64,000 nucleotides of DNA from Golubevia sp. BC0850 (Eukaryota; Basidiomycota; Exobasidiomycetes; Golubeviales; Golubeviaceae), in assembly GCA_012976225.1 (NCBI GenBank), contig JAAVVG010000021.1:62001-126000 (forward strand). Reading direction: 5' to 3'. The notes under the pieces are model-generated. The model did not search any database and had not been told where the DNA came from. It worked only from the letters and a program-made list of their open reading frames with translations. Positions 2,868 through 63,733 of the stretch are shown here, in pieces (position 1 is the stretch's first letter; every line of letters starts with the position of its first letter). A program made the position numbers and the translations under genes.

Positions 2868-4220
2868 GACATCTCTCTTCTTTCTCGGCTTCCCCTTTGT
2901 TCATATCACCTCTCTCCCATTTTTACATTCATCTACCTATGTAATTACCCTCATCTCGCTCTTGTACTCTTCCATCAATCTGCTCCTGTCTTCCCCCATT
3001 CACTTTTCCCTCTTAGATACCACTGCCTGCTCGAAGCTGTTGCAATTTCAATTTTTCAATTTTCCTCCTTTCCTTTGAGTCTGTCTGGAAACTTGAGATT
3101 CAGGGATGAAGAGCGATTCCAGAGTACAGTTGAGAAGAACACACCTGGGGGGATGGGTGCTGGTCTTCCTAAATCTCTCGAGATGCTTCCTTTGGCATAC
3201 CGTCTTTTTGCCGATCCTAGAAAAGCTCAGCTTTTTCTCGGTGAAGAGATGTATCTAGCTGAAGTGATTAGAACCAGAGATCTACCTCTTTTGACCCAAG
3301 CCGTCGTACATACCTTCAAGACCAATCTTATGGAACAACACAGAGAATGATCTTGATTCTTCCCGGAGGAAGCGGAAATGGAAAGAGAGAAGAGAAGCTC
3401 TGAAGAGAGAAGGGATCTTCAAGAGTCGATTGGTGAAGTTGACGGAACTCCAGCCTGGAAAACTGGGTTAGTTGCGAGTTGCGAGTCAAAGCTCTTGTGC
3501 TCTCATGTTTTCACAGCGATTAAATTGAAAAGTATATTTTCTTCGCTTTTTCTTCCCAGTCGAAGACCCTTGCAAGAAATGTGTCTCTCACAGTGCTTGG
3601 CTCTTCCCCTTCCACCCCTGAAATTGGCAGGTTTGGTCTTTCATGATGCGGTAACTGCCACCACTTTTGGAGATCTCTGATTCTATATCGAATAGAATTT
3701 GTAGTTCAGAATCAGATGGGTTATGTTCACTGAATCCGTTCAAATGAAAGACGACATGAAGAGCATTTCAAGGATGATATCTGCAGCTTCTGCGTCTGAA
3801 ATTTTGGAGTCGTTTCGACAAAAGATCTGCTTCTCTAAACCATGCCATAGAACTTCAGGGTGAGAACAATCAAAGACGGCTCTTGAGTGTCAGTTCGAAA
3901 TCTTGCCTCGCATCACGAGCCAAATTCTATCCAATTCACCTCGAGCGTGAAGTGGACTGCATGGACCACTAGTAGGCAGAAAGAGCTTTGACTGAGTGCC
4001 CATTCGTTTTCATCTGGGGTGACATTGCAACTTTGACTTTCGAGACAGCGGGAGGACGAGGACTCTCATTATCATCTCTCTTCTCCAAGTCCCACCGCCC
4101 GTCTCACATCTTTGGCTCATCTCCTCAAGTCTATCTTTCAATTGATAAGATAGCGTCAAATCAAGAGCAAGCCCTCTATTCACTTGGCATCATCAACTCG
4201 GAGAGGATAAGGAGGATGAG
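2868..4220. other. Gene-poor interval with a doubtful open stretch
   Basis: This 1.35 kb gap separates the protease from VPS8. A 92-codon open stretch on the + strand (about 3075..3350) has no ATG at its 5' end; its first in-frame ATG is near 3153. It encodes an amphipathic segment containing LPKSLEMLPLAYRLFADP. A further open run lies in another frame at 3354..3470 and stops near a GTTAGT donor-like site. I cannot join these into a convincing gene and recognise no family, so I leave the stretch uncalled. The final ~200 bases are the probable VPS8 promoter and leader. Confidence 0.4.
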
Positions 4221-7200
4221 ATGTCGTCCAAGCCTTCCAATTCCACTTCTTCCGCCTCAAAGAAACCAGTTCAGAACAGAATCTCGATAGGAGACATCTT
4301 CGACGAGGAAACGATTGGTTCGAATGGAGTAGGTGGGCTTCAAGACGATAACGATTATGAGAAAACGCTTAGAGAATTCATGGAGGATGATCAAGGTGAT
4401 TGGGAAGGCAAGGTGGAAGGTTCAGATCAGCAGCAAGACGTTCGACCTTTCGCAATCGATAGCAATCAAGCACAAGATGAAGAAGAAGATGAAGGATTCG
4501 TATACGCTGGTAACAGCTCAATGACTTCAACGAACGGCAAGACAGAGGATCAGAAAGGACCACGAGGAGAAGATGAAGAGGAGGGTGAGGAAGAGTTCTT
4601 CTATGGTGGAATAGATCGAAGGAAGGCGATATTGGAAGATGATGAGAAGGATCTAGGATTGAATTCAGGAGATTACAGTCTGGATTTGAAGGACGTTATG
4701 GGAAGTGATGAGGAATCGAATCCAGATTCTCAACTAGAAGTAGAGCAGCAAGAGGAGCTCTCCAATTCTTCCAACTCCATCAATCCAGATGATTCAGATG
4801 TTACAGATTCTGTACTTCCAGAGAATGGAAAGGGAAAGGAGAGACAAGATCATCAAGCTCGTCCATCTCTACCTACCTCCTACTCCACCGCCTCAAGCTT
4901 GAACTCAGCTCTCAACCTTCCACGTCGACCTCTCGAATACCCTACCATTTCAAGGCTGAGAGCAAGTGCTTTCACTCCTAATTCAACTTCAAATCGACGT
5001 TCGACTTCTTGCGGATCAGGCTCAATCCGCTCAACTTCTGGTATCAGCCTTTCTTCCAACAATGCTGTCGCTGGACCTAGCCACAGCAACGAAGCCACTC
5101 CTCCCAACGGTACAGTTACACCATCAATCAGATCCAGAAGTAGCTCGGTGTCGACTACAACAACTATCTCCAAGAGGAAGAGGAGCTTCCCATATGGTCA
5201 TGAGCAACTCTCTTCGCTATCCTCTCTCAATCGAGATGGCCAGCCCTCCTCTATAGACGGAACAGATCAATCAAGCATCGCGAGCCGACCTCTACTAGCT
5301 GGGGCTCCGAATCAAGTTCAAGAAAGGAATTCCGGGATGCATTCAACTTCTTCCTCGACCTCTGATCCTCCGATAGAAAGAGAACTCTGTCGATACTCTT
5401 CTCTTCGAAAGGTTTCAAACATTCTGTATCCCTCTGATCCAAGAACTACTTCTCTGGAGACGATAGAGGAAGATCGAGTAGGATTGAATGGGAAAGGAAA
5501 GGGAAAGCAAGATGGACGGGATGGGACCTCTAAACATGGAAAGCCAACTGTCATGAGCGTGGCTGGAGGCATGATAGCTATAGGAACTCAAATCGGCTGG
5601 GCAATGGTATTTGATTATCGGTCCCAGGAACTGAAGTGTATCTGTGGAACTCAAACTATTGGTGAGCTTGCCACATCTGCTATTGAACCTCAAAGATCTC
5701 GTCCCAGCTGACCGAGACTCGCCTTCTTCTCCTTCTCCTGCCAGCTTCGGAAGGCGGTGCTGTAACTGCTTTATCAATCTCTGCAGATCACACTTTCCTA
5801 GGAGTCGGTCACGCTACCGGTCATGTGGCTCTCTACGACCTCTCTCGACCTTCCGTCCCAAATCGACACGTCCCACCTCACCCAACGTCAGCAGTAGCGA
5901 CCGGACGAAGGGAAGGTCACTTAGTCAATTCCAAGATCCTCCACATCGGCTTCGTTGGAACGAGGCACACTGCCATCGTTACTGCCGACGAGAATGGACT
6001 CAGCTTCTGTCACACTCTGGGTAAAATCCTGGGAGTCAGCAGTAACGACACTCTTCGGATCTTTGGGAAGTACAGGCTAGACGACACGTCTGCAAGCGGA
6101 AAAGAGAACAAGGTTATTCTGGGAATGTCTCCTCTTCCACTGGGTCCGACGCCGCATCTTTCTGATCAGAACAACTTCGTCGCTATTCTGGCGAAAGAGA
6201 AGCTGTTGGTGGTGGGGTTGAAACCTCAACCCCGCACTTGGTACAAAAAGATTGTCAAACGAAGTCAACTCAAAGCTACTCGAATTGCTGAAAACGAAAC
6301 CTCAACTCCACCTTCTGTCAACGGCATCTCCTCCAGCTCAAGCACAATGTCAGTGGCGGGAGCCTTGGCCTGGTATCCTGCCTCTCATTCCGATTCATCG
6401 ACTTCTAGGAGCTCAACAACCAACCCTGATGGCTCGATCGATCCATTTCTGGCGTTCTCCCTTGGAAGCTCGCTGATGTTCCTCAAATTCTCAATCAAAA
6501 GGATCGAGCTTCCTTCCTCTCCTTCGAATTCTTCAAATCCTTCTACCAGAGAGGAGGTCGAAATAGTAGAAGATTCAAACGACTACTCCTTCGAATTCCC
6601 CATTCGAGCTCTACAGTGGCTAGATCACGAGCTGCTTTTGGTTCTCACGTCTCACTCTCTGGAGCTGTTTGACCTGCGGAAGAGAAAGTGCCTGGAAAGA
6701 CAGGGCTTATCTCCTTATCTGGAAACGATTCTTAGTCATCACTGGTTCGACAAGAAAGGTGAGAAGCATCCTTCGGAGCAGCCGGCGGAGCCACCAGATT
6801 CGGGAATGGCTGCGGCTGGAAGCATGAGAATTCATAAAGGCAAAGCCTTCTTCTTGGTGAGTCTAATCTTTGTCATATGGCAGGCTCGTTTTACTGTCGC
6901 TGATGCTGAACTCGGTTTCACCCCTTCTTTTGCAGACCTCAAACGAGATCGTCGTCGGAGCCGTCCTCTCATGGGCTGACCGAATCCTTCAGTTCGTCTC
7001 CAAAGGCGACTTCCTCTCCGCCATCGCGCTCGCAACATCTTACTACGAGGGTCAGGCTCTAGGATCCATGGTTGGCCTACCGGAAGATCGAGATGCTCAA
7101 CGAGAGATAGTCGGGGCGAAATTGAGAGAACTCATGACAGCTTCAGCTCAATACGCTTTCTCTGAAGACCGGTTGAGAGATGGCACTCACGTCACGCCAG

Positions 7201-10654: not shown

Positions 10655-13600
10655 TCAAAGGAAACGACGACAACCAGGAGATCCACAGAGACAAGCGATA
10701 GCGTCTTCCTCGTGTCCAGTAGATTGGAACTTGTAATCGTAGGTCAATTCTTGACCGGGTAAGATTGTGTTCTTGGCGTAGATCACAATTCTCTTTTCTC
10801 CATTCAAAGTCAAGATTTTAGCTGTCGCATTCGGCGTACAACAATGATTCATGAGTCTGGCGATGTTTCCTTTGTGAGTCGCATCAACTACCAGATCGTC
10901 ATCTACTCTGAAGAGATAGGTCGAGAAGTTACCCTGGGAGAATAATAGAAAGATAAGAGGGCCATCCAGTTCAAAGAGCGGGGTGAGCGTCGTTCGGAGG
11001 GAATAGAGTAAAGCGACTTTCATCCCGACTATCCTCTTTACTCACCTGTCTTTCGTATTGTTTTTCTCTGTTGTCAGCCACCTGTTGTCTGACGACTTCT
11101 CCTACATACTCAATAACCATGTCTCCAGCGGGAATCAATTCCATAGCATATAAACCCCAATCGTGAATTGGCGATTTTGAGAATCTCAATTGTTTCTTTC
11201 TGCTTCCCAGTTGATTGAACTTGAGGATATCGGTATCAGTTGCAGTATCTTTCTTGTGTTGTTCGATTCCAAGCAAGACCTTTCTAGAGTCAGCTCTGTT
11301 GTTCCTAGCAGATGCCAAAGCGTGATTGGAGACTGTCGAAGCGTCAACAGTGGCTGTGTTTCGATCTGGTAGATGAGCAGCTTTCTGAGAAGGTGGAATT
11401 CTGTAGAATCCTTGAGTTCTAGCGCTTCCAGATGAGTGGACTCTCTGACCGAGGTTCAGTCCCTCTCCAGATCCAGCAGCTCCAGCAGCCGAAGGAGCAA
11501 GTCCAGCGACTAGACCAGCATTGTCTCCAGCACCCTCCGGGACTACCGCTTCTCCAGCGCACATTCTTTCGAGAGCGATTTGGACGTAGTAGAGATCTTC
11601 GTCCGTCTCTGCGATTCCGATTTCGAAAGGATCCGGGGTCGGACTTCGAGGTCTCGACACGTCAATGGTAGGAGGCGTCATCGTTTCCACCTGTTTGAGT
11701 TTCTCCAGAAGAGCCTTCTCCGATTCAGGAACTCCATCGTTGACGACTTCCATCGGGGTATCGACCTGTTCGATCAAGGGGCCAGCCTCGACCTCTTCTT
11801 TCTTTCCTTTCTTCCCCTTGGCCTTCTTTCCGCCTCTCTTCTTTGTCACAGGAGCTTCAGCTTCCAAATTTTCCAGGAGCTGCTTTTCCTGTTCGGCTTG
11901 AGCATGAGCTTCGGCTACAACTTGGTTTTGAAGATCTTCGTCTTTCTCCATTTCCTTTCTCATCTCCTCAACGCTTGCTACTTGTTTCTGTTCCGCCTCT
12001 GCTTCCAGTTGAGCCTTCCTCTCTTGAATCTTGGCGTAGGCAGCTGCGATGACCTTGTCACCCATTTCACGCTGTTGTTCTTGAGCCGAGAGAGGAGGAG
12101 GTCCCGGAGGAGGACCAGGTGGGAGGGATGAAGGAGCCAAAGACCACTTGGAGAGTTTGGAGTTCTCCAAAGGCTGCTTAGGAGCGGGAGGTTGCTTGAC
12201 CTGCTTCTTCTTGAAGGAGGGAAGAGCCGATCCACTGGCTGAAGAGGCGAGATTCGTCTCGTCGCGAACTCTCCCATCAACGTCAACTTCTCCTTCTTCA
12301 ATTTCCTCATCTTCGTCCCTCCTTCGATATCTTGGACCTCTAGGAGCGATAAGATTTGAAGGGGGATTGCTCAAGAACTTTCCACCACTTCCACTAGGAC
12401 CGAGAAACTCGGAGACGAAAGGATTGACGACTCGATTCTTGAGATCTCTTGAGAAGACGTCTCCTAGTTCCTTCAGAATGATCTCACTAGCTGCTTCGGC
12501 CAATTCCTCATCTGTCCAGGTGATTTTTGGTCTCTTCCTGGTTGGTTTCTTGATCTCAGCTTGAGATCTACTAGGTCTTGCAACTGCTCTCCTGTCAGTC
12601 ACTCCTGAAAGAGGTGGCTTGACAGCGATTGAGATTTGAAATCCGGAAAGATTTGCTTTGTCCAAGACCATCTTGCATCGATTGGCAGCGTCCTTGGAAT
12701 TGAAAGCCACGTACCAACCTTGAGCGTCGGATCGGACCCAGAGAGGTAGGAAGCATCCGAAATGTCTGCGAATGGCCCCCACATTGATCTGAGAGGACAT
12801 GGAGGCGACTCTTGAGATGAAGACGTAAGGCATTCCGATCGTGTCTAACGTTTCTAGAATGGCTGAAGTCTCTTCGAACTTGTCTGGTTCTACCTCCACG
12901 AGGCCTCTTCCACGCGTAGCTACCAACCCACCTCTTCCACCACGGCCTCTCCTGCCATAGAAAACTTGAGAATTCTGGATTTGAGCTAGAGGAGTCTTGC
13001 CTGTGAAATCATCTTCGTCATCAGATCCCATGTCCATGTCATCCGACTCCTCAGCAGATTCAGCGGCAACGGATTCGTCCTTCTCCTTTAAGCTTGCTCC
13101 TTCCTTCTTTGCAGAGACGGAAGCTCCGTCTTTATCGCTCTCAGCTACCATTCCATTACTGGGGGAAGGAGAGGCAGCTCCATTGAGCGCTAGAGGGGAG
13201 GCAGCCGAAGTAGATTCCGATCTTGCCCTCGATTGAGATTGACTTGACGTGCTACCAGGAGCAGCAGGAGTGTAGACTGAACTCTGTTGAGCAGAGGCAG
13301 CAGAAGGGCTTTGAGGAGTAGCGACAGGAGAAGCAGTCGCTTGCTGAGTGGCAGCCCACCTCGGAGGTTGAGTTTGATGGGCTTGGAATCCGCCTCTGCC
13401 TCCTCGTTTGGAGGCAGCTCCTCTAGGACCTGTAGGAATGTTAGGTGGTGGCATCGGCGGTCCTCCTGTTCCAGATCTTGGTCCAGTAGGGGCATTGATT
13501 GGAGGCAAAGAAGCCTGGTGAGCTCTAGAAGCGGCGAGAGGAGAAGAGATGACCGGCTGAGAGTGTAGACTTCTAGGCTGACTGCCCACTCCCGAGAGTG

Positions 13601-15427
13601 GATGATGCTGTGAAGGATACATCGACGGCGCTGGAGGGGGCGGTGGCGGTGGAGGAGCAGTTTCTTGAGGTGGAGGAGGAGGGGGAGGAGGTTTCCTAAC
13701 GGCAGAAGAAGAAGAAGAGGAAGACCCCTTCTTTCTCGGAGGGTATCGCTTTCCTAATTCTATCCTATAAGTCCTGACGTATTTCTTCCTGTCTCCGTCG
13801 AGTTCGACTGCCACCACATTGATTCCGACCTTGGTTCCATTCGTAGCCTCCAAAGCTCTTTTGGCACAAACTTCTCCACGTTGATGATCCATCTTCTCGT
13901 ACTGGTAGTCCATGGCGTCTGCGAGAGGCTTTCCATCTTCATCGTAATCGTGAGCGAACTTCAGCCAGAAGATTCCGAGAGATTGACCAGTTTGAGGATC
14001 AGTCTTGAGTTCCGATTCCGCTACTCTTCCATACACTCTGAAGTGTTGAAGGAGGACTTGTTGCGTAGTCAGAGGCGAAGCTCCAGTGACCAAGATACCT
14101 CGAGGTGGAGGCGGTGGACGAGGCCCAACAGAGTTCGAATCCCACTGAAAATGAGAGAAGGGGAATGAGGGGCAGCTTTAGTATACGAAGCGACTTGGGA
14201 AGGCATGGTTTCGTTTCTCCTTCTTAGACTCACGTCGAACTTCACTCGCTCTAGCTGATTCCTAGCAATCTTCCTTCCGTAAGTAGTACTCCTGCCTTTA
14301 TCCGGAAAGCTCAGCCTAGGATCGATCCTCTTTGTCAAATGATCATTGTCTTCCCTGTATCTTCTGATGACATCTTTCCCCTTTGAGCCAGTCTTGTTCA
14401 GCAGAGGATCGAAGGTACACCTCCAACCTCTCTCGTTCTTGTTCGTGGAGAGCTCGAGTTCAGTAGGTAGAGGTACATGACCGAAAGAAACTGGTTTTGG
14501 AGGTGGTAAACGTTCGACTGAAGCCGGAGGAGGTTCTGGAGCTAGTTTCACGTCTTTGAACCAAGACTTAGGACCAAGAGGAAGAGCCTTGCTGGACGAT
14601 GTTGAAGCTGAAGAAGTTGGCGGTTTGGGTAGGCTTGAGGAAGAAGAAGAAGAAGATGGAGGAGGAGGGGGTGGGGGAGACGAAGCTGGTGCAGGTGGGG
14701 GAGGAGGTCTTTCTGGAGGAGCTGGAATTGGAGGAGGAGGGTGATTGGGGTACCTTCCGTTCTGCTGAGAGGTGGAAATTCCGTTCGGAGAAGGTCTGTA
14801 TCCGTTTGTAGAGCTTGTTGGAAGAGGTGTCGAATTAGAACTTGAGCTTAAGTTCGTATGACTATAAGAATCCTGACTTTGATCTCTTTCCTTGCCTTTT
14901 CCAGAACCATTCTGACCATTCCATGAGGCAGGTCCCGTTGGTGGCGCTCTTCTATCTGCCCACCCGTTCCCTCTAGGCAACTCTATCCCATTCACACTTG
15001 AAGTCTTTGGGGTTGAACTTGAAGAAGTTCTACGTTTCCCATTCGAAGTTGTTGAAGAATGAAAATCAGAGTTCTCTGGACTTCGAACATCTATCCCTTC
15101 CCCATGACTTGCTGAACCATTCCTGGATCTGTTAGGAGAGGTACCTCCCTTTGATGTTGAACTTTGACCATTTGAAGATTCAGCTGGTGGAGATCGATGT
15201 TCCAACCTAGCCAAGATTTCATCTCTTCTTTTAGGATTTGAAGGAGCTGGAGGTGAAGATGATAGCAGTGGTTTCTTCTTCTCTGCAGATTTCCCAGAGT
15301 TAGCCTTGTCCTTTTCGGTCTCTAATTTTGGTGGGAATGGAACTTGAGGTTTAGAAGGTAGCTGAGGCTTGGAAGGTAGAGGAGCCGACTGAAGAGAAAC
15401 AGCAGGTTTCGGTGGTAGATGAGACAT
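10655..15427 (-). CDS. SET1: SET1, histone H3 lysine-4 methyltransferase of COMPASS
   Basis: In coding order, exons 15427..14234, 14144..11046 and 10933..10655 give 1523 residues. The first ~270 residues are Pro/Ser-rich and disordered. An RRM follows the first intron (GILVTGASPLTTQQ to ELDGDRKKYVRTYRIELG), then polyproline runs, a second Set1-associated RRM-like domain (IGMPYVFISRVASM to FQISIAVKPP), and an nSET segment (EDLYYVQIALERM). The catalytic SET domain (QLRFSKSPIHDWGLYAME, VIEYVGEVVR, RLMNHCCTPNATAK, GQELTYDYKF) and the post-SET CLCGSPGCRRFL complete it. SET1 deposits H3K4 methylation at active promoters. MSHLPPKP at 15427 is taken as the start because a normal-looking intron (15672..15750) lies just upstream, placing that sequence in the 5' UTR. 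The NHxC cysteine and post-SET cysteines that bind zinc are present. Confidence 0.95.
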
Positions 15428-17077: not shown

Positions 17078-20000
17078 ATGTTACCTCGTAGAATCTTAAC
17101 TTGCTCTCGAGGCAAGATTTCCTTATCAGCAACTGCAACTTCTTCCAAATCCTTCAAAACTCTTGTTTCTTCCTCTTCCTCCTCTTCATCTGTTAACAAG
17201 CTATCAATTAGAAACTATGTTACAGCTCCATCAGCTCCGTTAGCACCAGTTTTCGGTTCTTCAAAAGTTTCATCCTCTCTCTTTGCACCTCTAGATAAAT
17301 TTGAACCTAGACATTTGGGTCCAAGAGAATCTGATGTTCAATCAATGTTAGAAACCTTAGGTTATTCAAACATGGATCAATTCTTAGAAGAAGCAGTTCC
17401 ATCTTCCATCAGATTATCAGACACAAAAGAAAGTAAGGACAGGTATTCTCAAACCATTCTACCTCTAAGTGAAAGTGAACTTTTGAGAAGAGGGAATGAA
17501 ATCGCAAACATGAATTCAAAGGTCAAGAGTTTGATTGGAATGGGTTATCATAATACTTTGGTTCCAAATGTCATCTTGAGAAATGTGAGTCAAGAAGGAA
17601 GAGGGGAGAATTTGGAGGAAAGAGAAAGGGGAAGGTGAAAACGGCGTGGGAAGGGTGCAGGTCAGATGAGATGGATTGGCTCGCGAATCTTAGAGGAAAT
17701 GGGGAAACAAATCCTACAGGATTGGAGAATAGGTGAATGAGATTAGCATGAGATGTTAAAGACGGTAGTAGAACTGCTCTGTGCGAGTTGACCGAGCTCG
17801 TAGAGTAGGTGGTACTCGAGCTGGGATGGAACGTTCCGTCTGGCTACTCTCCTCCCCTCTCTTCCCACTCGGAGGCTCTCTTTCCACGTTCTGAAGCGTG
17901 TCAACTTGATCGCAGAACTGTCCTCATGCTGTGATTCTAACGTCGAGCACGTCTCTAACCCTCGTCCCTCCCTTGATACCTCTTCCCCCGCAGGTCCTCG
18001 AAAACCCAGCTTGGTACACTTCCTACACTCCTTACCAACCAGAGATCGCTCAGGGAAGACTTGAATGTCTTATCAACTTCCAGACCATGGTAAAATCGCT
18101 CACCGGTCTCGACATTGTGAGTTGAGAAGCACAAGTTGTCCTATCTTCAATCGAGCCTTAAATCTGACCAATCCTTCCCCTCCTTCTCCAGGCCAACGCC
18201 TCTCTCCTAGATGAAGGAACTGCAGCCGCCGAAGGAATGATCTTAGCCTACGGAAATGCCAAATCCAAGCGCAAGACCTTCTTAGTAGATCGTGGAGTCC
18301 TACCTCAAACCTTATCAGTCCTCCGTCAAAGAGCCAAAGGATTCGGTATCAAAGTGGTCTTAACCGATTTAAGAACTCCAACAGGCTATCGTCTACCTTC
18401 AGAAGAAGAAGTTCCATCTTCAGACATCATGGGAATCTTGGTTCAATATCCAGATGTAGATGGAAGAATCACAGATTGGTCTAAATTAGCTTCTGAGATT
18501 CATCAGAAAGGAGGTTTGGTTATAGCTGCAACTGATTTATTGGCTTTGACAATGATTCAACCTCCAGGAGAATGGGGAGCTGATATCGCACTTGGAAATT
18601 CCGCTAGGTTTGGTGTTCCTCCAGGTTATGGTGGTCCTCATGCTGCCTTCTTTTCTGTCTCTGATAAGCTCAAGAGGAAGATTCCCGGTAGATTGGTTGG
18701 TTTAAGTAGAGACACCAGAGGTGAACCGGCTTATAGATTGGCTCTTCAAACTAGAGAACAACATATCAGAAGAGAGAAGGCTACTTCAAATATTTGTACT
18801 GCTCAAGCTTTACTCGCTAACATGAGCGCTCTATATGCGGTTTGGCATGGTCCTGAAGGCTTGAAGAAGATGGCTAGGAAGGTTCAGTGAGTCCCAAGCT
18901 TGTCAAAGCTTTTTCAGTCGACAAAATTTCTTCGACTTGAGCTGACACATCACCTTTCCCCTCTCTTCACCTTTACCTTTCTAATTTTCCTCACAGCGGT
19001 CTCACCCGTCTACTCAAGCATTCCTTGACAGAATTAGGACTTCGTGTCGTCAACCGAGACGGAGCTTTCTTCGACACTCTAACCATCGACCTCGCTTCAG
19101 CTGGAGTGGGAGCAGTTCGAGTTCACACCGAATCTGTCAAGGCCGGATTCAATCTACGAAAGATCAGTGACACTAGAGTAGGAATTACTTTGGATGAAAC
19201 TGTAGGATTAGAAGACATGACTGACATTTTGAATGTCTTTGCTTGTGCTTTGAAACCAAGTAAAGGTTCAGATCCAACTACCACAGGAGCTCCAGCTGCA
19301 GGTTCGACACTTTTGAATGCCATCAACTTGAGTTTCACTCCGGAGAAACTTCTGGATCTCGCCAAGCAATTAGGATTAGACTCCAGCTCTTTGGATACCT
19401 TGGAGATCTCCGATAAACCAATGATTCAAGCTAAAGCTCCTGTCTCTCAAACTCCCAAGATTCCAACTAATGAGAAGGCTGAGAAAGCTAAGACTCAAGT
19501 CGAACAACTTCCAGAGGTTCCGGACTTCAAGCGTACTTCTGAATTCTTGACCCAAAAGGTCTTCGGAGCTCATAGAAGTGAGACTCAGATGTTGAGGTGA
19601 GTTGACGAGATAGACACGCACGAGATTACGATTTGAGGGATTCGAGGGATAGACATTTCAACTCATATCTCCTCCATTTCTCCCCTCAGATACATCTACC
19701 ATCTTCAATCCAAGGATCTCTCGCTCGTTCACGCCATGATTCCTCTAGGATCCTGCACCATGAAGCTCAACGCCACCTCTTCAATGATGCTTCTCTCTCG
19801 TCCAGAATTCGGATCACTGCACCCATTCGCTCCTCCCGAACAAGCTCAAGGATACGACGTCTTGATTAGAGAACTCGAAAGAGATCTCTGCATCTTGACT
19901 GGCTTCCCAGCCATCTCCCTTCAACCCAACTCTGGAGCTCAAGGAGAATTTGCTGGATTGAGTGTCATTAGAGCCTATCTAGATGGAAGAGGAGAAGGAA

Positions 20001-21421
20001 AGAGAGACGTTTGTTTGATTCCAAACTCAGCTCACGGAACCAACCCAGCAAGCGCTATCATGGCTGGAATGAGAGTCATTGCAATCAAGGGAAAATCAGA
20101 TGGAAACCTAGATCTAGATGATTTAAGAGAAAAGGCTGAGAAACATAAAGATGAGTTAGCAGCCTTCATGGTTACTTATCCAAGTACTCATGGAGTTTTC
20201 GAGGAAGGAGTCCAAGAAGCTTGTGAAATCGTTCATCAAAATGGTGGTCAGGTTTACATGGATGGTGCCAATTTACAAGCTCAAGTCGGTTTAACTAATC
20301 CTGCTATTATTGGTGCCGACGTTACTCATTTAAATCTTCATAAGACTTTCTCTATTCCTCATGGAGGAGGTGGACCTGGAGTTGGACCTATTTGTTGTGC
20401 TGAACATTTAGCTCCTTATCTACCTGGTCATCCAATGGCTTCAGTTGGTGGAGAACAAGCTATTGGTCCAATTTCTGCGGCTCCCTTCGGTAGTGCTAGC
20501 ATCTTGACTATCTCTTGGGCTTACATTAAACAGCTAGGTTGGAACGGTCTTAGGAAATCGACTGAAGTAGCTTTATTGAATGCTAATTATATCGCTCATC
20601 GTCTTAAAGATGATTACAAGGTCAAGTACACTAATCGTCAAGGAAAAGTTGCTCACGAACTTTTAGTCGATTTGGCCGAATTTTCTGACTGTGGCTTGAC
20701 TGTCATGGACTTCGCCAAGGTGAGTGCTGGAGAACAGGAAGATGAAGTTAGGTTGAATTATAAGGAGGCTCTTCGTCTGTGCTGATCTCTTCTCCGCCTT
20801 TCTCTCTACTCACAGCGTCTCATCGATTATGGATTCCACCCTCCTACCTGTGCTTGGCCTATTTCGACTGGACTCTTGATTGAACCAAGTGAATCAGAAT
20901 CACTTCAAGAAGTAGAAAGGTGAGCGTTGTGATCGATTTTTCTAAAAATCGAAAACAGCATTGTCAAAGTTAGCATCGCCCTTCTAACGAAGACTTTCTT
21001 CCTCAAACGTTCTGCTTCCTCTCTCAGATTTTGCTCTGCCATGCTCTCAATCCGAGCTGAGGCGGAAGAAATTCGTCAAGGAAAAGTCTCTTCTACAAAG
21101 AATCTTTTGAAGTGTGCTCCTCATCCAGTGGAAGTCATGACTCGTTCAGAGCAAGATTGGGATAGAGAATACTCTAGAGAGACAGCCGCTTACCCAGTCA
21201 AACAACTCAGGGAATCCAAATTCTGGCCAAGTGTCTCCAGACTCGATGAAGCGTATGGTGATACTCATCGTGAGTCTTCTCAGGCTCGATCGAGAAAAGG
21301 CGAAGACGAGACGATGTTCGACGTGCTTCAAACTGACCCCCCCCCCTCCCAATCTTTTCCTTTCCAACCTCCTCTTTCAGTAATGTGCGAGTGTCCTTCA
21401 GTAGAAGAACTAGCAGAATAG
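17078..21421 (+). CDS. GCV2: GCV2, mitochondrial glycine dehydrogenase (P protein of the glycine cleavage system)
   Basis: Exons 17078..17584, 17994..18116, 18192..18886, 18997..19596, 19690..20719, 20816..20919, 21028..21269 and 21381..21421 give 1113 residues. The protein decarboxylates glycine using PLP and passes the aminomethyl group to the lipoyl arm of H protein in the mitochondrial matrix. An N-terminal Arg/Ser-rich presequence ([13 protein letters not shown]) precedes [18 protein letters not shown]. Family landmarks include [71 protein letters not shown] and the PLP-lysine site [17 protein letters not shown] with K860. It ends [16 protein letters not shown] linker of roughly 80-100 residues (after CALKPSKG) seems longer than in most P proteins, and the first intron (409 bases) is several times longer than the others. 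The ATG at 17078 gives the targeting sequence; the open frame upstream of it looks like leader. Confidence 0.96.
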
Positions 21422-26297: not shown

Positions 26298-28398
26298 CTA
26301 AGTTTGCCTCTCCTGAAGTCTCTCCGCCAGTCTTTGAGATTCATTGACAACCTAGGAGAGATTGAAACGCAGGTAGTAGAGATCAAGATCAGTAGTTGAA
26401 GTAAGAATCTGCCAATGATGCAGAGTAGGAGAGTACTCACCACTCCTTCTTCAACCCAAGGACCTCTGAAGTTCTCACTCCTCCTCATCTCTTCTTTACC
26501 CATCATTCCATTTCCTGGACCGGTAGAAGCACCATTGGCATTCGAAATCCCACTTCCAATGATGGCATCCAAATCTCTGGATTGAGAGGCTAACCAAGTT
26601 CTCAAGTGACCGGCTGGATCCCTAGAGAAAGCAGAGAGGAAATCTCTGGTAGCTGAACGGGTTCGAAGAGTTGAGGTCGCTTGTGAGATCTGACGAAGAT
26701 GAGATGGGGTTTGAGAACACTTAGGTCAGTTTCGATGATTTTGAAAGGAACTTCGATACCCTCAGCCTTTCAGTCAACTCACCATCTCGTCCAATTCGGT
26801 AACCTCCTTTTTCTTCGCCGAGCTCTCCCATTCCTTGATGATAGAACTCATTCTACCCCTGTTGAGTAAATCCTCCATTTCAATTTCCACATCAAAAGCC
26901 TCTTCACTCTTATGAAATTCTTTATCAGTTCTAACCCAGTATTCTAAAACGACAGGTAAAGGCGGAGACAACATTCTATTAATCAACTCAGGTAAATGAT
27001 AGAAATTCAAATTCTCTAAATTGAAAATCTTCCTCAAAGCATCATCACAATTAACGACTTTAGGATTTCCCTCGTCTAATAAAGAATTCGTTTGAATATA
27101 AGACCACATAGCATTTAAAATATCAGCTCTAGTTGATTCTACTAACCCCAATAGATTTGCGAGATCTGTTGAAAGAAGATATCTTTCAGGTGTATGTTGA
27201 AGATAGAATGCAATTTTGACCTTCACAGGAACAGAACCAGTTCTCTTGATTTCGAAACCATCTAAAGCAGGTTCTGAAGCATGAATCATCGAAGGTTCAC
27301 CAATTCCACCACCTCCAGTTGCATTGGCGCTTGGTTGAGCTGAAGAAGGTACTGTTGAAGGAATCGGTCTATGCCATTCTACCATATTGCTCCCATTTGG
27401 ATAGAGCCTTGAATCTCTCATGATCTCTACTGTTAAGGATTGAAGGAGGTTTGAGAATTTGTAGGCACCTGATCTTCTCATCTGACCATCCGCTGCCTGA
27501 GCTGCGTTAGCTCTAGAACGATTGGGCAGTTCCAGTAACCTTCCTTCCACCCTTAGAGTCCAAGAAGGCAGATCCGCTTCAGAGACTCCAGCTTTCCTTG
27601 CCTCCGCTTCGGAATCGATTCCAGTTGGCTCTGAAGTTTCGGGAGCACCATCCTTCTGGAAAGGCTGATTGGCACACGTGTTCGACAGGAAGATTCGAAG
27701 AGTTCTTTTCGTCTGTCGTTGTTAAAGAGAATGATTATAAGGGAACGCGTCAGAAATAGAAGAAGCACACAGAGACAGATAGAGGAAGGAGGAAGAAAGG
27801 TAACCTCTCTTTGTTCCGCCTCTTCCACTCTCTCATGCCGCAATTGCCTTCCAATGAATTTCATTGTCTTTCCCCAAGTGATCCAATTTTTAACGACATG
27901 AATGCTAGTAGCGTTGGAAGCACTCACCCTGCTAGCTCTAGCATTGAAACCGCCCTCATTGATCTCTGCTCTTTTCCTCATGATCTCCCAATCCAACTTT
28001 CTCTCCATCTTTAAAAGATCATTAAAAAGAGCGGATTCAGGGATCTGTCTTTGAATTGAAGGAGGTAGAGCTCTATGGGAAGCTTTCTGACCACCAGCTG
28101 AAGTTGAACCTAGACCACCTCCTCCTAATCTCTTTGATCTTGAAGCTGACCTCAAGGATTCACCCAAAAGGTTGTCTGTAGCAGCTCTTTTTCTGAGAGA
28201 CAATTGAGCTTGATAAGCTGCGTTTGTGACTTGAGCTTGTTGAGCAGCGCTCAATTGCTGAGGTTGAGGTTGAGCTGGTGGATTCTGATTCTGATAACTT
28301 GTTGATGGTGAAGGTGAAGCATGATACATTGCTTGACCATGTCCGTATTGAGGTGTTCCACTATTACTTCGGTAGTGAGGGGGAGCTTGGTGTGACAT
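26298..28398 (-). CDS. SNF12: SNF12/SMARCD-type SWI/SNF chromatin remodelling subunit (SWIB domain)
   Basis: Exons 28398..27928, 27712..26783, 26719..26441 and 26351..26298 give 577 residues. A Gln/Pro-rich N-terminus is followed by the family core: ESALFNDLLKMERKLDWEIM, then across an intron TKRTLRIFLSNTCANQPF, DLPSWTLRVEGRLLE, MVEWHRP, DGFEIKRTGSVPVKVKIAFY, and the SWIB/MDM2-like domain PERYLLSTDLANLLGL with TRADILNAMWSYIQ and HLPELINRMLSPPLP. The C-terminal helices LASQSRDLDAIIG and PWVEEGVVVNESQRLAERLQ end in RQT. The protein is a non-catalytic core subunit of SWI/SNF (Snf12) or RSC (Rsc6); sequence alone does not decide which, though the layout resembles SMARCD/Snf12. ATG 28398 is chosen because the reading frame upstream lacks an ATG. 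The second intron is only 63 bases. Confidence 0.92.
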
Positions 28399-32112: not shown

Positions 32113-35100
32113 ATGCTGACAAGTAGCTCAACTGGAAGGAAATGGTTTCTTCTAGGATTAGCTATTGTCATTCAATTAGCCTGTTGGAGAGGTTCAAGTA
32201 AATTGAGATCATCTTCATCATTATCATCTTCAAGTTCTTCAAGTCTAACCATCAACCACAATCATTCAACTTCATGGTACGAGAATCTACGGCTACGAAA
32301 GAGGAATTTATTGGACCTGCATTCAGGGGGAAGCTTGGTTGGGTTGAAGGGAGGAGAGCAGGAGCAATTGCTGGGAGAGAGAGAGGGTCTAGTAGAACAA
32401 GTGGAAGTGGAAGTAGGTGAATCGAGTAACAAGGAGAAGGAAGATGAGAAGGAGGAGAAAAAGGAGAAAAAGAAAAAGGAAAAAGAAGAAAAGAAACACA
32501 AGAAAAAGGAGAAGAAAAATGAAAAGAAACATAAATCTAAATCTACCTCCTCTACTTCTGAATCCACCTCCTCAACTCATACCACTACCATCACCACTAC
32601 GATTGAGAAACCTACCGCTACTTCTGAATCCACCAGTTCAACTTCAAGTAAATCATCTACAAAGACTTCAACATCTCCAACTCCAACTCCTCCTCTACCT
32701 TGTGATCCTCTACCACTTCAACTCTCACCACCAAAACTATGTGCTCATGTTAGAAAACATTGTCCACCTTCTGGTCATTTCGATTATTTAGGTTTCTTCT
32801 ATTGTCAAGGTGTTGAAGAAGGTAGAGATCCAGATTCTCATTCAAGTACCTTTTCATCTTTAAGATCATCTTCCGATTCTTCCTCTATCTCCGATCAACT
32901 GTCAAATAATACCACTTCCAACCTCAACTCTGAAGGATCAATCGAAATCGAGTTCAAAAATAGAAAAGGGAAACAAGAGCTCTATCCTATCTCAAGGAAA
33001 GTTTCTATTTTGAGATCTCTGGCTCTAGCAATCATCATTGGTTGGATGCTCTTCCTCTTCTCTGGAGTCGGAATCGTTGCCAGTGATTTCTTTTGTCCTA
33101 ACCTGAGTACTATAGCTAGTAGATTGGGTCTGAACGAGAGTACAGTGAGTATCGTAAACGAGGAAATAGCTTCACTCGTTGTTGTTCTTACAATCCGCAC
33201 TCCCTCTCTTTCTCTCCCAGGCAGGAGTAACTTTCCTCGCCTTTGGAAATGGATCTCCAGATGTGTTCTCGACCTTCGGGGCCATGAAGTCAGGTTCAGG
33301 ATCTCTAGCCATCGGAGAGCTCTTAGGAGCAGCTTCCTTCATCGTTAGTGTCATCTCTGGATCGATGATGTTAATCAAACCATTCAGAGTTAAAGCTTTT
33401 CCCTTCCTAAGGGACGTTGGATTCTTCACCGTAGCAGTAGCTTTGACTATGAGCTTCCTCCTAGATGGTAGATTGAGGCTGAGTGAAAGCCTCTGTCTAA
33501 TTGGACTCTACATCATCTACGCAGCGACAGTCATTATCGGAAGTTGGTGGCAGGAGAGAAGGAGAAGGAAAAGGTTGATGATCGCTACTGCTAGAAGTGA
33601 ATATAGCATCCATGCAAGATCGAGACAGGATTTAGAAGATGAGGAAGATGAAATCGTTAATCCTTTTAGAGATGATGAGGATGGAGTTGGAGGAGATCAA
33701 GAATCAAAACTCAAGACTCCTTCTAGAAAGTATAGATCTTCTTCTGTCAACAGAAGTACTGAAGATTTGGAGAGACAATCTGGAATGCTCTCTGTTCCTT
33801 CTCCTTATCTAGCTCCTATAAGCCCTTCTTCAGAATACGATCCAGAAGCGGATCCACTAGAGCTATGGGCGGATACCCCTTCAGCAGGCATGAGAGCTAT
33901 AGCAGGAATCGCAAGTGCTGTTGGAGCTCCTTCTTCAACTCCTGCAGGTTCTCCTAGGATGAGTCCAAGTCCAATTGGAAGTGCCTCTTCAAGAACAGGT
34001 AGAGGAGAAAGTCAATTAAGTAGTTTAGGAATGATGAGATCTCAATCCAAATTCAGACCTGGTGCAAATCCAAGACATTCTTTACTAGGTGCTATCGAAT
34101 TCAGGGATGTTGTTAGAAGTCTTAGAGCGGAATCTAATTACACTGATGCCGATGATAGAAGTTTAGAAGTCTTTCAAAGTAGAGATCCGGAATCTTTTTA
34201 CCCACACCATCATAACCATCCTCATCATCATCATCAATCTCAGAATCCTCAAGAGAGACCAAGGCATCAACGTTCTGAAACTCACGCTCATAGGAGAATC
34301 GCAAGTATGATGGGCCCTTCAAGTGCTTTGGAACCTTCAGCTGCTTATGAATACTCGAGAGAGAGAGCTTATAGTACTGGAAATAGAGGTGGGAGACCTG
34401 CAGTTCATAGAAGTCGATCTACTGGGAATCACCTCCGAACAGCTGATGATGGAGATCACTACTTTGCTAGTTTCCATGGAAATGGGATCGGATCTAGCTC
34501 CGGCTCGGGGTCAGGATCAGGAGAAGCATCTGGGTTCGCTTCTCTCGTCGGATCGAGGGAGAGGGATGCTGCAGCTGGAACTACTGGAGAGGGGAGAGGG
34601 ATCGACGTTGGAGCTGCTACCGCCGGATTGGACGATCCTTGGAGAGAAGAGCACACAGTCAACGACAACTGCGAAGACGCTGCTCCACCGCCCTCGAACA
34701 ACAATCTCGAAGGGTTGAGCAAGTCTGATCAGCTCAGATTGGGTCTACCCAAGATCGGAACTCATCAACGCAACGTCAGCGAGGAGTTCCTCTTACCTCC
34801 CTCTGCTGATCATCATAGCGACAAATCTCGCTCGCCAGTACCCTCAATTCACATTTCCAAATCAGGTAGAAGTGACGAAGAGTATTCTTCTCCAGGAACT
34901 CCAACTCCTCAACCTACTAGATCCAAGTCAAACAGGGCTGGGAAGCGATCAAGATCCGACTCTACGCCAAATGGAACATCTCTGATGGAATATCGACGAC
35001 TACCGAATAGCAGGACGAGTTCGGAGAGCTTCCAAAGACACCTCAAGATGACACGAAGAGCTCTTTTTCCATCGCTTAGACACTTCAGAGAAAAATCCTG

Positions 35101-36483
35101 GCTCGGAATCATCGTCTCTGTTATCACTGCTCCAGCTCTCTTTGCTTTAAATCTCACTCTACCAGTCGTAGATGATGAAGCTGAAAGGCAGAGAGAATTC
35201 GTGGCTGAGGGTGAGCTCAGACTATCAGGATCGGAAACAGATCTTCGTGCAAGAAAGGCTTTCTTAGAGGAAGAAGAGGAGGACGAAAGGATCATCGATC
35301 TAGGTGGTGATCCCGAAACGACTCCAACAACGGATCGAATCGAAAGAGTTCATAGAGCTGAAAACTCAGAGAGAGATCGAGAACTCGCTCACGCTCTTGG
35401 AAAGGTCCCTCTAGGGGAATCTTCTGTCAAGTCGAACAAACTAGGTCATTCTAGGAATAACTCGAAGAAATCAAATGGAACAGTTCTAGATCCAGTCAAT
35501 GAGAATAATGAAGATGATGGAGCTTCAGAATGTTCAGTTGATTCTTGTTCTACTTCTTCTTCGATCTTTGGAGATTCAGCTTCTACTGCCAACTCGGAAC
35601 TGTTTCCAGCTCAGTGCATCTTGGCTCCTCCTTTCTGCACTTGGGCTATCGTTTCGTCTTCTGGAGCTTCTGAGAAATCAGTTCGAAATAAAGTTATCTT
35701 GGCTTTCTTCTTCGGTTTGACTCTTTCTTTCATTTCTCTCTTAGCTACTTTAAGAGCTAAAAGTAAAGGTGGAAGTTGGTTATCTAAAAGAAACATTTTG
35801 ATAGCTGGGAATGTTAGGTGTGGGATTGGTTTCATCGTTTCGGTCATGTGGATTATGACGATAGTGGATGAAGTGGTTTCTATTCTTCAAACCATTGGTA
35901 TCATCGTTGGACTAAGTGACGCAATCTTAGGTTTGACGGTATTCGCCATTGGTAATTCTTTGGGAGATTTGGTTGCGAACGTCACTAGTGAGTTTTCACC
36001 CTCCTGGACCCCTCCCCTCCCTATGACCTTTGCTCACCAAACCTGTCTCCTTCTCATTTTTTCTCAGTCGCAAAAATGGGACATCCAGTCATGGCTATCT
36101 CAGCATGTTTCGCAGGTCCACTATTGAATCTTCTCTTAGGAATCGGTATTTCTGGAAGTTGGATTCTCTCTCGACCAACTTCTAACTCTCTTCCTTCAAT
36201 CTTGGAAGATGGAATCTATAAGATCGATTTCTCTCCTACCTTGATCGTCTCTGGACTTGGATTGCTAACAATCCTGATAGGAACCTTGATTGCCGTCCCA
36301 ATGAATGGGTTCTTGCTCAGTAGGAAATTGGGAACTTGTCTCATCGCTTCGTATGCTTGTGAGTACTTTAGAGGTCGCACCGCCGTGGCTTATCAAGCTC
36401 AAAGACTGACTCCAAAATGCTGTCATTTCCCAGGTATCATGGTCACGAACATCTTGGTGGAAGTCTTCTACGCAAGTCCTTAG
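32113..36483 (+). CDS. Large NCX/NCLX-type cation-Ca2+ exchanger (yeast YDL206W-like)
   Basis: Exons 32113..33144, 33221..35987, 36068..36358 and 36434..36483 give 1379 residues. A signal or first TM segment (WFLLGLAIVIQLACW) is followed by a Lys/Glu-rich and Ser/Thr-rich lumenal region. The cysteine block KLCAHVRKHC...YLGFFYCQG is typical of fungal YDL206W-like proteins. The first exchanger alpha repeat carries LAFGNGSPDVFS (N354, D358), right after intron 1. The second, GNSLGDLVANVT (D1260), ends at intron 2. Between them lies a very large cytosolic loop of about 500 residues with Ser-rich and His-rich tracts (HHHNHPHHHHQ). The last TM helices end EVFYASP. The family exchanges Na+ or H+/K+ for Ca2+ in mitochondrial, vacuolar or other inner membranes. 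The ion pair and location are not decided by the sequence. The loop is much bigger than in NCLX. Confidence 0.9.
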
Positions 36484-60200: not shown

Positions 60201-61207
60201 CGTTGAGTTGATTTGGAAAGAGGAGATCATTTTCTTAGAGGAGTAGTAGCTCACCTGTCCATTTCCGCTGCCCTCCTTTGCTTCTCCGAAAGCTTCTTTC
60301 ACAGTGTCTTTCATGTTGGTGTAAAGAGTCTGAACCAGAGTTAGGAAAGGTTGGACGTGCTCCTCCAAGACTGCCTTATGATTTCTGTGAAGATCGATGA
60401 TGATCTTGAGAGCTTGAACAGCGTTCTCCTCGTTGTCTGATCTGACGACTTCCAGCATGCAAACCATCAAAGACGAAGCTAAAGGTCTGACAGCTTCAGA
60501 AGCATAGAGGCGATGAAGCGTTTCCAGAAGGATGTGTCGAAGTTTCTAAGGTGGCGGTTAGAGGAGAGGAAGGAAAGTGCGTCAGCCTTGAATGACGACT
60601 CGTGATCTCTCCCTGTTTTGACTGCTTGATTGTTACACCTTATATCTACTCACATGTTCCGGACTTTCAGATGTGAAGGCGTAAGGAGTTGAAGATAGCA
60701 GAGATGAGTAGGCAGGCACTATCGAACGTAGAAACCGCGGATAGTCTCCACTGCTATAGTAGGACTCCACCAAGTCCTTGATTTCGGTGGCAGCCGAAAT
60801 CTTCGCTTTGCGATCTGAAGAGCGAAGGAAGAGGGGGAGAGGGGGGTAAAGAGAACGCGAGAGAGAGAGAGAGATGGCAAGAGATGGTGGTGGGAGTGGA
60901 TTAGATTCCCTTCTCGACTAGGGCATGCCCTCAACTGAGCTACCTAGACTTTATAGATTTCATCAATAACAATCCAATCTCCCGTTTGATAGGGATGAAC
61001 TGGAATGAGGAGGAGAGGAAGGCTTTCTTTCCACCTGAACGTCACCTCACCATCACCACCTGTCTCCCTTCAGGTATCTCCTGCCCATCATCGCAAGACA
61101 TATCTTCACTTACCTGTTTTTGAATCATTTAGCCTTGCAACTAGAGCGTCTGGATCTGGTAGGCTACTCTTTGAGTTTGTGGTGGTTGAGGTGGGTGAAG
61201 CAGCCAT
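48282..61207 (-). CDS. TRA1: TRA1, PIKK-family scaffold pseudokinase of SAGA and NuA4
   Basis: Exons 61207..61114, 60814..60654, 60545..60255, 60180..55664, 55558..53110, 53011..50414, 50298..48574, 48475..48392 and 48308..48282 give 3981 residues. The protein is almost entirely HEAT/TPR-like helices, for example IKDLVESYYSSGDYPRFLRS near the N-terminus. It then has a FAT region and a PI3K-like domain (APTVRLIDYDSCFVSLQDIY, SSRLPNRIHISRSSGQVTM, SINIQNFIGPIGIEG) lacking the catalytic DxxxxN and DFG motifs, as in all Tra1/TRRAP proteins. The FATC end is NPVKLAQQDPIWAPWL. Tra1 is the activator-binding surface of the SAGA and NuA4 acetyltransferase complexes in the nucleus. A strongly charged Lys/Glu-rich insert (about residues 1283-1365) and a second acidic insert downstream seem lineage-specific. 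Intron 1 (299 bases) carries a tRNA-like relic. Confidence 0.97.
60895..60955 (-). other. tRNA-like relic inside TRA1 intron 1
   Basis: Read on the minus strand, the segment has TAGCTCAGTTGAGGGCA, close to a tRNA A box, and about 35 bases later GGGAATCTAATCC, a poor match to a B box. A CCCT/AGGG hairpin lies between them where an anticodon arm would be. The acceptor stem does not pair and the T arm is broken, so no working tRNA is claimed. It may be a decayed tRNA gene or coincidence. Confidence 0.3.
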
Positions 61208-61425
61208 GACGATGGCGCTACTTGGGTTGGTTTCAACTCTCCAGCTGATGAGTGAATTGCTGTTAAGATGATCGATTCAAGGTTGATGTAGGGAGGATTA
61301 GATAGGAGAAAGAGGGTGGATGGCTGGATGGAATGGGGAGTGAGATCCAAGAGAAGAAAAGCCTTCCTTGACCAAAACCTACACCAAATCTCATACTCAA
61401 TTCTGCCTCACTATTCTCAGTCAGA
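61208..61425. promoter_or_regulatory. Bidirectional promoter between TRA1 and the SQR-mL58 gene
   Basis: Only 218 bases separate the TRA1 start (-) from the SQR start (+). Both promoters and leaders must lie here or overlap. No defined motif was recognised. Confidence 0.55.
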
Positions 61426-63733
61426 ATGACAGTGATTAGTAGAATTGTTCCAATCTGTAGATCTTCAGCTTCCAAAGGAGCTCTCTCTTGTCTTAGTCGC
61501 TCTACTGGCAGCTCAGTGGTGGCTTTAACTTCTTCCTCCTCTTCCTTTGCAACAGTCACTTCTCATCCATCTCATCCTTCAAATCCTCCAACTCCTCCTG
61601 CTACCACCTCAACAAACTCAAATTCTTCCTCTTCCTCTACCTCTCAGTCAAAATCATCTCACAAAGTTCTGATCGTTGGAGGTGGAGCTGCAGGTCAATC
61701 CATCTCTCATCAACTTTTAAGATCCAATAAATTCTCTCCTCAAGATGTCGCAATCGTTGACCCTTCAGCTACTCACGATTATCAACCAGGATGGACTTTA
61801 GTTGGTGGAGGTTTGAAGAACAAGGAAGATTTGAGGAAAGATATGAAAGATCTCATTGGGGATCAAATCAAATGGTATCGAGAATCAGTTGAATCCTTTC
61901 AGCCAGAATCTAACTCCTTGACTACAAAAGAGGGTAGCACAATCAGCTATGATCAATTGGTAGTTTGTCCAGGTCTTCATGTTAACTTCGCTGGAATCAA
62001 GGGACTGGAATCTGCTCTTAAGGAGAATGAGAAGAGTGGGGTGTCGAGTATCTATGGCTATGTGAGTTCTTCATCCTTCGATTGCATAGAGTACATGCGT
62101 GAGAAATGGAGTGATAAAAGGGTCAAAATTCGATGGAATAGCTTGTGGAGAAGGGAGGCTTCGAGCGAGCTCTTAACACCGAGATTGACTCTCTGACTTC
62201 TAACTTCCTTTCTCCAACAGGACACTTGTTCCAATCTCTACCCACAAATCAATGCTCTCAAGTCTGGAAAAGCAATCTTTACCCAACCAGCTGGAGTGGT
62301 GAAATGTGCAGGAGCCCCTCAAAAAGCAATGTGGTTAGCTTTAGATCACTGGAAACAAGAAGGTCAATTCAAGCGTTCAGATTCTTCTACCTCTTCAACT
62401 GGAGTCGAAATCACTTTCGCAACTGGAATGCCATCTATGTTTTCTGTACCAAAATACTCCGACATTCTCAATTCTCTACGTCAAGAAAGAGGAGTCACAG
62501 GACTTTTCCAACACAATTTAACTTCAATCGATTCATCAAAAAAGGTAGCCACTTTCTCCAAATTAGACGACAAGACTGAAGTTTATTTAGATTACGATCT
62601 TCTACATGTGACACCACCTATGAAAGCTTATTCTTTTGTCGCAGAATCTCCTCTAGCTGATAAAGCTTCAGGTTTCGTAGATGTCTCTCAAGCTACTACT
62701 CAACACAACAAATATCCAAACGTTTGGAGTATTGGTGATTCTTCAAGTTTGGCAACTAGTAAAACTGCAGCTGCCGTCACTGCCGAAGCCCCAGTCTTAG
62801 TTGGAAATTTATTGGCAAAGATGGAGGGAAGGAATTTCGAAGAGGAATATGATGGTTATACAAGTTGTCCTCTTTTGACTGAGTATGGAAAGGTTTTGTT
62901 AGCTGAATTCACTTATGGTGGTGTTCCAAAAGAAACGTGGGTGAAAGTCGAAAAGCCTAATTGTGTTTTCATTCCAAGTACTGACGTCTCTCTTCTTCAT
63001 TCATCTCTACAGCTTCACTCCTCTTGGGCTAGACCAATCTGTTCCTCGAAGAGCTTTCTACCATCTCAAGAAGGACTTCTTCCCTTGGATTTACTACAAC
63101 TCCATGGTCAAAGGTACCTGGGCCGGACCAAAAGGTTTCCTCTCTGCTCCATCTACTTCCAGAAGTCTATCAACCTATACCAGACCAACCATCTCTTCTT
63201 CATCCTCAAACAAAGCCAGAAACTTCTCCACAAGTTCAATCGCTTCTCGTAATTCACCTTCAAGAAGACCTAGAGATCCACTTCAAACCGATTCTTCAGC
63301 TCAAAGGGCGACCTTAGAAGATGGAAGTTTCTTCATCTCAAGGCCACCTCCAACAGTACCATCTAATGAATCAACTGTCTTTTCAGCCCATCCATTCCTG
63401 TCCAACAACCAGAATACCGAAGTCTCAAGTTCATCAAGTTTCCTTCCTCCACCTCTAAAATCAAGAACCAGAAAAGTCTCAAGAACTATACGTAATGACC
63501 TTTCGTCGGAAGAGATCTCAAAACTTCAAGCTTTCAGAGAAACTGGTGCTTCTGTTAATGAAACTGCTAGAGAATTCAATTGCTCTAGTGCCTTTGTTAG
63601 CATCGTTGCTCCTGATCAGAGTGGGAAAGCTGGGGAATTGGAAAAGTTGAGACAAGCGGAGGAAAAATCTACTTGGGGTTGGAACAAGAGAGTTTCGAGA
63701 GAACTCAGAGGTGCTAGGAAAGAACAGTGGTGA
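61426..63733 (+). CDS. Sulfide:quinone oxidoreductase fused to mL58/MRPL20-like mitoribosomal protein
   Basis: Exons 61426..62061, 62221..62936 and 63013..63733 give 690 residues. An Arg/Ser-rich presequence (MTVISRIVPICRSSASKG) precedes the FAD-binding KVLIVGGGAAGQSI (80-93). SQR landmarks follow: HDYQPGWTLVGGGL, VKCAGAPQKAMWL with C241, VWSIGDSSSL and YTSCPLLTEYGK with C428, the two cysteines that carry sulfur in SQOR. The enzyme normally ends near FYHLKKDFFPWIYYNSMVKG / TWAGPKGF (residue 493). Here the frame continues without a stop through a Ser/Thr/Arg segment (494-531) containing RNFSTSS. It then enters a domain with FLPPPLKSR, LSSEEISKLQAFRETGASV and ETAREFNCSSAFVSIVAPD, resembling fungal mL58 (Mrpl20, large mitoribosomal subunit). 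It ends GARKEQW. Exon 2 ends at a GTGGGT donor, giving KETFTPLG as in SQRs. A single precursor cleaved after import is the likely outcome. Confidence 0.85.

Follow-up and report, generated by a model that had tools for sequence, protein, structure and literature searches.

A predicted in-frame fusion of sulfide:quinone oxidoreductase and mitoribosomal protein mL58 in Golubevia sp. BC0850

Organization of the locus

The window, by which we mean the whole stretch of DNA that was analysed, comprises 64,000 nucleotides of a contig from the basidiomycete Golubevia sp. BC0850. Its domain matches suggest an unremarkable run of fungal genes. Near its end lies a three-exon gene whose single reading frame appears to join sulfide:quinone oxidoreductase (SQR) to the mitochondrial ribosomal protein mL58. 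The features are given below in coordinates of the window.

4149-5708, forward strand: Vps8 propeller match
10974-14177, reverse strand: N-SET and SET_assoc match
19637-20782, forward strand: glycine dehydrogenase match
26777-27721, reverse strand: SWIB/MDM2 match
33170-36124, forward strand: Na/Ca exchanger match
61207 down to 55660, reverse strand: TRA1 gene, divergent from the fusion gene
61208..61425, no strand: 218 intergenic bases separating the fusion gene from the likely TRA1 ATG
61426-63733, forward strand: SQR-mL58 fusion gene, with three exons
61426..62061, forward strand: exon 1, with the start ATG, the acid-free N-terminal part (residues 1-106) and the beginning of SQR with the GGGAAG motif
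62062..62220, forward strand: intron 1, with a GTGAGT donor, CTGAC/CTAAC branch-like sites and a CAG acceptor
62221..62936, forward strand: exon 2, SQR with the cysteine motifs VKCAGAPQ (C241) and YTSCPL (C428)
62937..63012, forward strand: intron 2, 76 nucleotides, with a GTGGGT donor, a CTGAC branch-like site and a CAG acceptor
63013..63133, forward strand: first part of exon 3, the SQR C-terminal block to residue 491, which is the end of the 6oi5 match
63104..63106, forward strand: last in-frame ATG (M482), within the SQR C-terminal block and the sole unspliced ATG for a separate mL58
63134..63262, forward strand: linker, residues 492-534, acid-free and basic, with the R501 and R520 motifs; putative presequence relic
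63263..63733, forward strand: mL58 (MRP-L20, PF12824) domain, residues 535-690, and the stop codon, with Pfam, profile and weak fold matches

The reverse-strand frame at 55663-60234 matches Tra1_central (E 2e-212) and Tra1_ring (E 1.5e-180), and the likely first exon of TRA1 spans 61207-61114, with a GTAAGT donor at its end and the ATG presumably at 61207. When the three exons of the fusion gene (61426-62061, 62221-62936 and 63013-63733) are spliced, they yield 2073 nucleotides that encode 690 amino acids without an internal stop. Both introns begin with a GTRNGT donor, a pattern that occurs at no other site within 61426-63733, and both contain CTRAY-type branch sites, identified by eye, upstream of the CAG acceptor. 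An earlier note on this DNA, made from the letters and open reading frames, had placed the third exon at 63013..63733, which agrees with the spliced model, and the sequence motifs that it quoted are found in the translated fusion.

Intron 2 carries no stop in the frame of exon 2. If this intron were retained, the frame would shift at exon 3 and end at 63252, giving an SQR with neither its C-terminal block nor mL58; retention might serve as a switch, or the open intron might be a matter of chance.

Identity of the two halves

Residues 79-491 of the fusion protein align to residues 4-399 of PDB entry 6oi5 (E 6.1e-87 in a PDB sequence search), a match that covers a full-length SQR. We take 6oi5 to be human SQOR, of which S. 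pombe Hmt2 is presumably a relative. Both SQR cysteine motifs, VKCAGAPQ and YTSCPL, are aligned with 6oi5 (the redox cysteines of human SQR being C201 and C379), and the alignment takes in the C-terminal block, ending GTWAGPK. In the SQR family this block holds the enzyme on the inner mitochondrial membrane, at whose matrix face SQR acts. Pfam assigns this half to Pyr_redox_2 with 44.4 bits against a cut-off of 26.1. The first 106 residues include no acidic and eight basic residues, a composition as expected for an N-terminal presequence. Judged from its sequence, the first half is a complete mitochondrial SQR, the enzyme named in the earlier note, and is predicted to oxidize sulfide and reduce quinone. 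The fusion protein thus shares with the mitochondrial SQR of 6oi5 the full-length match, both cysteine motifs and the C-terminal block, and differs from it in 199 additional C-terminal residues, which carry mL58.

These additional residues had been assigned to mL58 in the earlier note, which had set beforehand that the absence of a profile match to mL58 would refute its reading. What was found is a match of residues 536-690 to positions 3-164 of the 164 positions of the Pfam MRP-L20 profile (PF12824), with 55.7 bits (E 8.9e-15) against a gathering cut-off of 30.4 bits. The last 96 residues (595-690) match the profile by themselves (E 1.7e-12), and no Pfam match results when 62 residues from the N-terminal half of mL58 are searched alone. 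Among PDB sequences, a plain phmmer search returned only N. crassa mL58 (E 0.11), and a two-row profile, built from the mL58 part of the fusion and the N. crassa mL58 chain fragment, found yeast mL58 with an E of about 1e-8, a value to which the N. crassa row contributed; the fourth match of this profile, RnfC (E 0.23), looks like chance.

Structural comparison points weakly to the same assignment. An AlphaFold2 model of the mL58 part, made from the single sequence, has a mean pLDDT of 66.6 and places helices at residues 616-627, 632-638, 643-649 and 654-689. When this model was compared with known structures by Foldseek, the first three of 416 matches were the mL58 chains 3j6b_a, 6ywe_a and 5mrc_a, although these matches are weak (E 0.037, 0.075 and 0.13), with TM scores of 0.24-0.26 and rmsd values of 15.5-17.4 for a single-sequence model and a method that also uses sequence. 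None of the 416 matches reached 0.001 or better, and helix-turn-helix proteins are common below rank 3 among the best 50. The second half is, by Pfam, a complete mL58; it resembles mL58/MrpL20 (PF12824; PDB 3j6b, 5mrc, 6ywe) in its full-length profile match and its best, yet weak, fold matches, and it differs from that protein in lacking a separate ordinary start codon and in having an entire SQR ahead of it. A second copy of mL58 or SQR was not found in the 64 kb window, where other matches had E values of 0.86 or worse.

One reading frame or two

The tail from 63134 to 63730 is open in none of 3000 Markov sequences of the same composition, and the linker alone (63134-63262) is open in 36% of 5000 Markov sequences. 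Because an open linker arises this often by chance, it is weak evidence, and the argument for a single gene therefore rests on the missing start of mL58 more than on the missing stop of SQR. None of the frames contains an ATG from 63107 to 63320, and the ATGs that follow, at 63321 and 63366, are out of frame and lie inside the mL58 domain, whose Pfam-matched part begins at 63266. We regard this missing mL58 start as the stronger sign of a fusion. In each of the four exon-3 segments, the fusion frame has the highest of the six codon scores (ten long frames from the window served to train the score), though by a narrow margin in the linker (0.307 versus 0.206 and 0.141 for the other two forward frames). 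The earlier claim of an in-frame fusion holds on these grounds: there is one frame of 690 residues, both domains are matched, and mL58 has no ordinary start of its own.

Splicing was considered as a means of separating the two coding regions. Exon 3 lacks donors of the GTRNGT and GTNNGT types, and a CTRAY-YAG pair is likewise missing from the linker. A hidden intron between SQR and mL58 is ruled out for consensus sites, and non-consensus introns are possible.

In principle, misjoined loci, or errors that removed a stop and a start, could produce such a frame from an artefact or a decayed copy while a normal mL58 gene resides elsewhere. The locus is represented by a single unverified sequence, and this speaks for such an origin. 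We nevertheless judge it very unlikely, given that both domains are intact, share one frame and match in codon preference. Moreover, because the interval from 63107 to 63320 is free of ATGs in every frame, a single indel alone cannot give mL58 a start between the domains; rescue of an ATG start in the linker by one indel is ruled out.

A different means of making a separate mL58 would be translation from M482 (63104), the last in-frame ATG before mL58, by way of an internal promoter or leaky scanning. The overlapping frames would then share sequence, with the end of the SQR frame serving as the presequence, and the product would be 209 residues long with an acid-free, basic N-terminus. This arrangement strikes us as quite unlikely. 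Without a stop codon at the end of SQR, translation would still yield the full fusion unless the SQR mRNA ends early; in a full-length mRNA, M482 comes after other ATGs, among them the start codon of the gene.

The linker and the fate of the chain

Several characteristics of the linker resemble those of a mitochondrial presequence. First, it constitutes most of an acid-free stretch (residues 473-538) with 10 lysines or arginines, and the highest net charge of the protein, +6 per 30 residues, falls within this stretch. Second, the best helical moment over 14 residues is 0.47 here and 0.48 in the N-terminal presequence. Third, both of the R-x-[FYLI]-[SAT] motifs that a pattern count finds in the whole protein, at R501 and R520, reside in the linker. 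Two or more of these R-3 motifs occur in residues 473-538 in 1.1% of whole-protein shuffles (P 0.011) and in 8% of shuffles when the stretch itself is shuffled (P 0.08), and so composition accounts for part of the motif count. Elsewhere in the window, 13 long frames (10,073 residues, read from stop to stop and unspliced) contain 15 acid-free stretches of at least 40 residues, two with one motif and none with two. From these characteristics we infer that the linker is the old presequence of mL58, minus its ATG.

The candidate site for the processing peptidase MPP is RN-F-STSS (residues 520-526). It is part of the sequence KARNFSTSS, which resembles ten-residue MPP sites ending in RRAFHT or RRAFST that, according to PMC10450427, work between fused proteins.

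Fused mitochondrial precursors are known from other fungi. PMC12375894 describes the Rsm22-Cox11 fusion of S. pombe, which is cut after import to leave Rsm22 in the matrix. That fusion likewise joins a mitoribosome-related protein to an inner-membrane protein, in its case one of respiratory-chain assembly, but its partners are other ones, and Rsm22 binds the small subunit and, judging by the name of the fusion, comes first (PMC12375894). In the Golubevia protein, SQR comes first and the large-subunit protein mL58 last, and any cleavage is a prediction. According to PMC8847149, internal cleavage by MPP is demonstrated for Arg5,6 of S. cerevisiae, and internal targeting-like sequences with MPP sites are reported for Etp1, Rsm22-Cox11, Atp25 and others. 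Arg5,6, Etp1, Atp25 and SPAC22A12.08c, like the proposed Golubevia precursor, have more than one functional unit per precursor together with an internal targeting-like sequence and MPP site (PMC8847149); their protein pairs are unrelated to SQR-mL58.

We consider it moderately likely that one nuclear gene encodes a tandem mitochondrial precursor whose linker is cut by MPP to release free SQR and free mL58; a single precursor thus probably supplies the cell with two mitochondrial proteins. This precursor would consist, in order, of a presequence, a complete SQR, an internal matrix-targeting linker and a complete mL58. It may have originated when SQR lost its stop codon and an adjacent mL58 gene lost its ATG while keeping its presequence. 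After import, MPP would cut within the linker, most likely at RN-F-STSS, and Icp55 may then trim the new end. Trimming by Icp55 is associated with the R-3 motif. The released SQR would settle on the inner membrane, and the released mL58 would join the large mitoribosomal subunit. A single promoter, located in the short stretch that is shared with TRA1, would set the synthesis of both proteins. The earlier proposal that one mRNA fixes the ratio of the two would apply only if cleavage is complete and turnover is equal.

The alternative fate is that the chain is left uncut, at least in part, such that SQR on the inner membrane is covalently tied to mL58 and helps to anchor mitoribosomes. This outcome has a structural rationale: PMC11345376 counts mL58/MrpL20, along with mL44, mL50 and mL57, among the proteins of the membrane protuberance, which has been proposed to help in membrane anchoring, and in the fusion about 43 linker residues connect the SQR C-terminal block with the N-terminus of mL58. 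With mL58 placed in this protuberance, both halves may act on the matrix side of the inner membrane. In light of this placement, the view in the earlier note that the two proteins have no obvious reason to be one chain was too strong, while its identification of both proteins and of their in-frame fusion stands. If the chain were uncut, SQR would sit beside the contact of ribosome and membrane. However, the linker resembles a presequence with cleavage motifs and not a neutral tether, and the fungal precedents Rsm22-Cox11 (PMC12375894) and Arg5,6 (PMC8847149) are cut. An uncut chain is unlikely, in our assessment. A more specific proposal is also unlikely: SQR, if it stays joined, would be a built-in protuberance anchor, linking the translation of respiratory subunits to the place where quinone is reduced.

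The 690-residue protein gave one pattern match and no relative in a viral contig collection, and a scan of genome contigs with residues 452-690 brought up 86 pattern matches, none of them a relative; fungal DNA is hardly expected in either. Because both collections are viral or prokaryotic, these searches are uninformative on fungi. The main text of PMC7560712, on the N. crassa mitoribosome, makes no mention of mL58, L20 or bL20m, and the main text of PMC9925542 contains no mitochondrial ribosome terms, Rsm22 or sulfide. No description of the SQR-mL58 pair was found in the literature outside most subscription papers, and protein databases may record it.

The import and processing of two proteins in one chain can be studied in fused mitochondrial precursors, of which few examples are known to us (PMC12375894, PMC8847149). 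The SQR-mL58 precursor adds a pair in which a respiratory enzyme is combined with a protein of the large subunit's membrane protuberance, one that is missing in mammals (PMC11345376). Two questions become testable with this fusion: does an old presequence, now internal, act as a cleavage site, and can a respiratory enzyme be carried by a mitoribosome or serve as its anchor? If it is common to related fungi, the SQR-mL58 fusion would be a marker of their clade.
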